Assembly (NCBI GenBank): GCA_020444065.1
Contig: JAHLLQ010000002.1
Location: 558,001-622,000 of the forward strand
Source of the DNA: a bacterium
Lineage (GTDB): Bacteria > Sumerlaeota > Sumerlaeia > SLMS01 > JAHLLQ01
Direction of reading: 5' to 3'
DNA length: 64,000 nucleotides
The position numbers and the translations under genes are program-made. Under the pieces are notes generated by a model, which saw only the letters and a list, made by a program, of their open reading frames with translations, had not been told where the DNA came from and did not search any database. This document shows, piece after piece, positions 295 through 1,737 of the stretch; positions within the stretch are counted from its first letter, which is position 1, and each line of letters opens with the position of its first letter.

Positions 295-1737
295 TTACTC
301 CTTCACCGCGCCGGCCGTCAGGCCCTCGAGGAAGAATCGCTGTGTTGCCAGGAACAGAAGAGCAATCGGGATAATCGAGAAGCAGGCTCCCGCCATGATG
401 CGTTCCCAGTCCTGTCCGTACTGGCCCTTGAAAGCCTGCAGACCCACCGGCAACGTCGTTACGGCCGAACTGGGCTGCGTGACGATCAACTGCCACAAGA
501 AGTTCGACCACTGCGTCACGAATACCAGCAGAAAGAGCGTCACCATGATCGGCAGGCAAAGCGGAATCACGATGTTTTGGAAGACTCGCAACTCAGACGC
601 ACCGTCGATTTCGGCCGCATTGAAGAGGTCGCGTGGCACCTGGCTGATGTACTGCCGCAGCAGGAACAACCCGAAGACGTTCGCCAGGTGGGGGAGAATC
701 AACCCGCGGTACGTGTCTATCCATCCCAACTGCAATGTTATCGAGAACTGGGGCACCATGTAGATCATGCCCGGTACCAGCATCGACGAGAGCAGCAGGC
801 CGAAGATCACTTCGCGATAGTGGAATTGCTTCACCGCGAACGCGTACCCGGCCATCGTACAGATGACCACCGTCAGCAGCGCTGCCAAACCCGCGACAAG
901 CAGCGAGTTGAATCCGTACTTGCCGAACGGGAAGTCCTTGTTCTTCAGAATCGCCATGAAATTGTCGGTCGTGTAGAGAGCGTCGACCGCTTCTCCGAAC
1001 GACCGGTGCGTGACGACCTTGAAATACGGTCCCTCCGGTTCCTCATCCGCGTTCCTGGGTGGAATCGGAGCCGGATCCCACTGCGCGATTGTCCCACGAT
1101 AGGCGCCGTCGGAATAAGCAAGCTGTACTTCATTCCCGCGATGATCAACTGCCGACAGCGTCTGACCTTCCGGCAGGCGCAACACGACTTGCAGACCCTT
1201 ATTGGTCTCCTCAGTCGCGTTCATTGGCGGGCGATTGTAGGCAATCTCGCCCTCTTTGGCCTCGATCACGGAATTGCCGTCGGATGTTGCCCAATCATTG
1301 TCCGGATCGGCCACCCATTCGCTGCCGCTGATGACGAACTTGTAGGCATATACGCCGGGATCAGCGTTCTGGATCTCCCCGACCCAGACCCCGCCGACTG
1401 CCTGGGACAGTGGATTCGCATCCTTATCCCAGCCGTTGAATTCGCCGGCAACGTTCACCGTCACGGCATTTGGGTCAGTGTATTCGAAGTGAAGCGTCGT
1501 TGCTCCTTCCGGCATCGTCTCGACAGCGATCGGCTCGCTTGCCTGAGCCGTGCTGGGCAGGAACTGCAGGCGGAAAGCCGTACCTGGCTGCTTCAGAGCG
1601 GTGATGATCATCCAGATCAACGGCAACTGGACAAAGACCAGCATGCACGACAGCACGATGATCAAGACAGTCAGCTTGATAGCTTTAATTCCTCTGCCCG
1701 GAAGGGGCTTCCATGGTTCGCGCAGGGCTTCAGGCAT
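295..1737 (-). CDS. MalG-type sugar permease with CBM48-like insert in first periplasmic loop
   Basis: Inner-membrane permease of a CUT1 carbohydrate ABC transporter, 480 aa where MalG proteins are usually 270-300. Residues 20-47 form the first membrane helix. The MalG core resumes at about 255 (a TDNFMAIL segment, then NSLL at the second helix). The EAA loop that contacts the ATPase is at about 371-395 (NAAEIDGA). Between about 62 and 250 is an inserted region. Residues 82-160 read like a CBM48/AMPK glycogen-binding domain (VNVAGEFNGWD, then GVYAYKFVISG, then WVADPDN), followed by a second beta-rich stretch to about 240. By topology the insert faces the periplasm. It is transcribed between the MalF-like permease (3 bp upstream) and the binding protein. 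Permease identity is secure; glycan binding by the insert is inference. Confidence 0.9.
   Translation of the reverse strand: MPEALREPWKPLPGRGIKAIKLTVLIIVLSCMLVFVQLPLIWMIITALKQPGTAFRLQFLPSTAQASEPIAVETMPEGATTLHFEYTDPNAVTVNVAGEFNGWDKDANPLSQAVGGVWVGEIQNADPGVYAYKFVISGSEWVADPDNDWATSDGNSVIEAKEGEIAYNRPPMNATEETNKGLQVVLRLPEGQTLSAVDHRGNEVQLAYSDGAYRGTIAQWDPAPIPPRNADEEPEGPYFKVVTHRSFGEAVDALYTTDNFMAILKNKDFPFGKYGFNSLLVAGLAALLTVVICTMAGYAFAVKQFHYREVIFGLLLSSMLVPGMIYMVPQFSITLQLGWIDTYRGLILPHLANVFGLFLLRQYISQVPRDLFNAAEIDGASELRVFQNIVIPLCLPIMVTLFLLVFVTQWSNFLWQLIVTQPSSAVTTLPVGLQAFKGQYGQDWERIMAGACFSIIPIALLFLATQRFFLEGLTAGAVKE

Follow-up and report, generated by a model that had tools for sequence, protein, structure and literature searches.

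In the window, as we call the whole 64,000-nucleotide stretch of DNA analysed, a minus-strand operon carries genes for a MalF/UgpA-type permease, a MalG-type permease with a CBM48 insert, and a sugar-binding protein of the SBP_bac_1 type, in that order; all window features given below by position lie on this strand. The partner permease (1744–2844; Pfam, NCBIfam and hydropathy), whose real start is probably near 2694, has no enlarged P2 loop. The second gene is an intact ORF of 480 aa (295–1737 including the stop codon, coding part 298–1737), and its assignment as a CUT1 permease draws on the ORF, Pfam, NCBIfam, solved-structure relatives, a structural model and Foldseek. The 5′ part of the binding-protein gene occupies positions 1–287, and the gene runs past the window edge to contig position 556881. 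Among solved structures, its product best matches a substrate-binding protein for which no sugar is named; the many other matches include several maltose-binding proteins. A gene assigned by its sequence to the SpeA-type decarboxylases lies upstream of the operon. Genes for the MalF-type partner and the binding protein accompany the permease gene in every relative whose contig is long enough.

In core, topology and association with MalF and binding-protein genes, the permease resembles CUT1 permeases of the MalG/SugB/UgpE type (E. coli MalFGK2, 2r6g; LpqY-SugABC, 7cad and 8ja7). It differs from them in that no ATPase gene adjoins the operon: the genome contains a single OB_MalK match, elsewhere (C3:562294, spanning 562294–562464), against more than 20 CUT1-like permease matches. 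We infer that the importer uses a shared ATPase.

A MalG-type permease with an enlarged periplasmic loop

The permease core, from the YTTDNF helix on and including the EAA-type loop, spans residues 255–480 (298–975) and is delimited by Pfam, solved relatives, the model and Foldseek. The Pfam family BPD_transp_1 matches residues 296–465 with 48.3 bits (cut-off 26.4). SugB and MalG are the best solved relatives of the C-terminal half, while those of the insert are GlgB branching enzymes; in a Foldseek comparison with SugB and MalG the full-length model reached an E-value of 6e-12 and a TMt of 0.67 (8hpm_B). The first-pass annotation, made from the letters of the window, had spoken of a MalG-type permease. 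This stands as membership of the CUT1 MalG/UgpE/SugB type but does not extend to MalG itself: the score against the NCBIfam MalG equivalog NF008231 is 100.7 bits against a cut-off of 261, and that against the UgpE equivalog is likewise below cut-off, which is why we write of a MalG type and not of a MalG orthologue.

Hydropathy and charge counts give five K/R residues in the N-terminal 22, hence a cytoplasmic N-terminus, followed by TM1 at residues 23–41 (1615–1671; helix 15–47 in the model) and then by an acidic loop. Together with the structural homology of the full-length model to MalG and SugB, this pattern supports the assignment of the enlarged loop to periplasmic loop P1, outside the membrane and not in the cytoplasm, the placement that the first-pass annotation had named as fatal to its reading.

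The spacing between TM1 and the YTxxNF motif is about 205 residues in the window protein and 18–29 in insert-free Sumerlaeota orthologues, which are 60% identical to it. The insert thus measures about 187 residues, in agreement with the nearly 190 first proposed. Against the roughly 20 residues usual for P1 in permeases of the MalG/SugB/UgpE type, the 205 residues of the window protein add a CBM48 domain and a second beta domain.

The insert combines a CBM48 domain with a second beta domain

A CBM48/AMPK-type glycogen-binding domain occupies residues 78–162 (1252–1506). Both motifs by which it had first been noticed were located, AGEFNGWD starting at residue 97 and VYAYKFVISG at residue 129, and Pfam CBM_48 matches residues 83–145 above its threshold (E 5.5e-7; 30.3 bits, cut-off 22.4). 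The AMPK1_CBM family (PF16561, cut-off 26.8) scored 25.3 bits by hmmscan and 27.8 in a whole-genome scan. With a mean pLDDT of 83, the full-length AlphaFold2 model contains TM1, two beta domains and the permease core; pLDDT is about 90 in the CBM48 domain and low at residues 50–58. When the loop was modelled alone, Foldseek matched it to AMPK glycogen-binding domains (TM 0.77–0.81, about 2.2 Å), including 1z0n and 1z0m (TMt 0.77, 91 columns, 2.3–2.4 Å) and 4yef, which contains glucosyl-cyclodextrin (TMt 0.78–0.81). The predicted structure is therefore an Ig-like beta-sandwich of the CBM48/AMPK kind, and the identification of a CBM48-like domain holds at the levels of both family profile and predicted fold.

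The beta-rich stretch reported to follow it is modelled as a separate, juxtamembrane beta domain at residues 163–246 (1000–1251), with strands at 165–245 and a pLDDT mostly of 84–91, falling to 59–67 at residues 221–240. Pfam does not recognise it in the window protein; a weak match to GlgB_N appeared in one orthologue only (L009, E 0.0075). Descent of this second domain from a duplicated CBM48 was considered but is not supported by profile comparison, which gave a probability of only 1.5–15%.

That the resemblance arose by chance, that the gene is an assembly chimera, or that the loop is cytoplasmic we hold to be practically negligible, given a score above the Pfam cut-off, the predicted fold, the same architecture in independent genomes and a MalG-like topology. 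In particular, three other genomes (L009, L048 and L051) have the domain at the same place, which argues against a chimera.

The domain shares its fold and the sugar contacts described below with the glycogen-binding domain of AMPK beta (1z0n, 4yef) and the N-domains of GlgB and isoamylase; those belong to a kinase subunit or to enzymes, whereas here the module is part of a transporter's periplasmic loop. The same genome gives 19 AMPK1_CBM matches, several of them in proteins of amylase type whose N-terminus resembles a leader. Further CBM48-like domains occur there in other settings: a likely lipoprotein of 163 aa with one AMPK1_CBM domain (L075:5208-5696), a protein of the endonuclease/exonuclease/phosphatase family fused to CBM48 (L077:15733-16962), and four proteins that contain several CBM48-like domains and end in a stretch of thioredoxin-like appearance (L079:6978-8888, L080:5770-7386, L084:1287-2780 and L085:1988-3307), of which L079, the one scanned, gave a weak Pfam Thioredoxin match below cut-off.

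A predicted sugar site

In AMPK, W100, K126, W133 and N150 stack on and hydrogen-bond to beta-cyclodextrin (PMC9788615). Alignment to the AMPK sequence, which was verified against PDB entries, places at these positions W103 (1429–1431) and W141 (1315–1317), the equivalents of the sugar-stacking W100 and W133, together with K133 (1339–1341) for K126 and N155 (1273–1275) for N150. AMPK L146 and T148 find no match in the window protein. All four equivalents are kept in the L048 and L051 orthologues as well, and L009 has Q in place of K. The domains of these four proteins are only about 30–50% identical, yet both tryptophans and the asparagine are retained throughout and the lysine in three of the four. 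In PTST, a starch protein with CBM48, changing both equivalent tryptophans to alanine abolished starch binding (PMC4339375). Judged from the aligned residues and the modelled fold, the window protein is likely to bind glucan.

Distribution and loss of the site among orthologues

Among 40 Sumerlaeota genomes surveyed for orthologues at E-values up to 1e-60, 22 have one. We aligned 13 distinct full-length inserts: four have an intact site (the window, L009, L048 and L051) and nine are without both tryptophans. The nine degenerate domains have kept a similar length, and profile comparison shows their homology to the intact ones (probability 97.8%, E 7e-13). Two further orthologues have loops of about 110 residues with no CBM, the L011/L053 orthologue ends at its contig edge, and the f13 group, without the insert, has a loop of 18–29 residues. 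The fold has thus outlived glucan binding in the sampled relatives, and with both tryptophans gone from the retained domain in nine orthologues, and the domain itself gone in two, glucan binding is not the sole role of the loop.

These nine domains bring in the main rival explanation, that the insert is a docking arm for the binding protein, an Ig-like spacer comparable to MalF-P2 but placed on MalG-P1, whose CBM48 ancestry is incidental and which binds sugar weakly or not at all. MalE of E. coli makes contact with both MalF-P2 and MalG-P1, to judge from the title of Daus et al. 2007 as it appears in PMC3150292; on that basis the insert sits in the loop equivalent to the one touched by MalE. 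The partner MalF has no P2 domain of its own, and the full model also aligns with E. coli MalF over about 450 columns in Foldseek, but at an rmsd of 17–19 Å. As in E. coli MalF-P2, a large beta-rich periplasmic insert belongs to a maltose-type permease pair and lies at the binding-protein face; unlike MalF-P2, it is located in P1 of the MalG-type subunit and has a recognisable CBM48 sequence with a predicted sugar site. The retention of that site in four such divergent domains speaks against a pure spacer. Moreover, the insert-free orthologues have the same type of binding protein and the same operon, so the insert is not needed for docking as such. We consider the docking arm, taken as the whole explanation, rather unlikely.

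In permease-core trees, which have moderate support at several nodes and some long branches, the four intact-site proteins fall outside the degenerate and shortened ones and do not form one clade (AU P-value 0.018, the group having been picked after the first tree was seen). The simplest reading is a single gain with the site intact, after which a derived clade lost the site and a deletion arose in one branch; under it the f13 group would be without the insert by loss or because it never gained it. A tree of the CBM48 domain itself (86 columns) resolved neither a single origin of the domains nor their derivation from an amylase encoded nearby. Outside the permeases, the closest match to the CBM of the window protein is a CBM48-GH13 amylase (L112, 43%, E 5e-16).

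A scan of 84,980 species, made with peptide patterns and so of limited sensitivity, returned CBM48-bearing permease relatives from Sumerlaeota only, apart from the record of L015, which states no phylum. Orthologues in Wallbacteria have no insert, and that in Mcinerneyibacteriota has a 100-residue loop with no detectable relation to it. The possibility that this latter loop (L035) represents the second beta domain alone is not supported, at a profile probability of 1.2%. About 5 kb upstream of the same Mcinerneyibacteriota permease lies a gene for a stand-alone CBM48-like protein of 140 aa with a leader-like N-terminus (L035:499-921). In plasmid and phage records no fusion covered at least 80% of the query, and in the literature accessible to us (most subscription papers being out of reach) we found no report of CBM48 in an ABC permease.

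Amylase genes beside the operon

Where the upstream side of the locus is visible, GH13 amylase genes adjoin the operon in nine of ten checkable cases with a degenerate or shortened insert (L100, L101, L102, L107, L108, L109, L110, L116 and L117, but not L113), in none of three with an intact site (the window, L009 and L111) and in none of four without insert (L103–L106); because the clades are few, these counts do not amount to a test on independent samples. The CBM48-GH13 amylases of Sumerlaeota, often encoded beside the operon in these relatives, carry the same module as the permease insert but are enzymes, whereas the window protein is a membrane protein. All six CBM48-bearing amylases compared keep the W/K/W/N set. 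The pattern suggests that the sugar-binding task may have moved from the permease to the amylase.

By its gene context the importer family is linked to the use of alpha-glucan; the importer is most likely of the CUT1 ABC type for malto-oligosaccharides. As no amylase gene is present in the window's own operon, its substrate is read from the relatives. At the L111 locus, where the permease CBM is intact, the MalF partner (L111:1311-2696) is longer by about 150 hydrophobic residues placed between its two halves.

A model for the role of the insert

In importers of this class the binding protein is held to recognise the substrate, and the permease to receive it. The CBM48 fold can also act in protein–protein contact. 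With the CBM48 and second beta domains inserted in P1, the loop equivalent to the one contacted by MalE in E. coli, the CBM48 domain would bind periplasmic chains of alpha-glucan or maltodextrin and could retain their ends, or long oligosaccharides, close to the docked binding protein. The outcome would be a higher local substrate concentration or a stabilised loaded complex. We put at slightly better than even the chance that the window protein captures glucan or maltodextrin beside the binding-protein dock. Against capture stand the restriction of the intact site to four orthologues, the lack of conservation at AMPK positions 146 and 148, and an operon without its own amylase.

A sensor or gate, in which glucan on the CBM48 domain shifts the loop and switches transport much as glycogen inhibits AMPK, appears very improbable. 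The low pLDDT at residues 50–58 may indicate a flexible hinge under the domain, and in AMPK the CBM acts as an allosteric site (PMC9788615), but the window protein shows no element that would couple the domain to the pore, and many relatives have lost the sugar site.

Returning to capture beside the dock, in relatives with a CBM48-amylase encoded next to the operon the permease domain would have lost its sugar site and been retained for structure or docking, or deleted. Capture and docking may therefore both hold, in sequence during evolution. The full course, in which the membrane subunit itself bound polysaccharide at the dock and this function was later dropped, the fold being kept as a docking arm once a CBM48 amylase had joined the operon, we put forward tentatively, at somewhat less than an even chance.

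Permeases of this type and CBM48 are both familiar; outside Sumerlaeota, the papers, plasmids, phages and genomes searched contained no case of the two joined in a periplasmic loop of a permease. If the capture reading is true, a permease CBM facing the dock would be a second recognition site, linking polymer capture to uptake. The natural series of proteins with no insert, with an intact CBM48, with a CBM48 lacking the sugar site and with a partly deleted one makes the question testable within one orthologous group.

Other permeases of the phylum depart from the usual layout as well. Further MalG-type permeases of Sumerlaeota have P1 loops of about 300 residues (L122, G018:C3; L123, G023:C102), and two more have loops of about 100 residues (L127, at C6:49469 of the same genome as the window, and L128); the two scanned, L123 and L127, gave no Pfam match in P1. 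Enlargement of P1 is thus recurrent in Sumerlaeota. In three Sumerlaeota genomes (L119, L120 and L124), MalF-type and MalG-type permeases are joined in one fused ORF, with frames of 637–682 aa.
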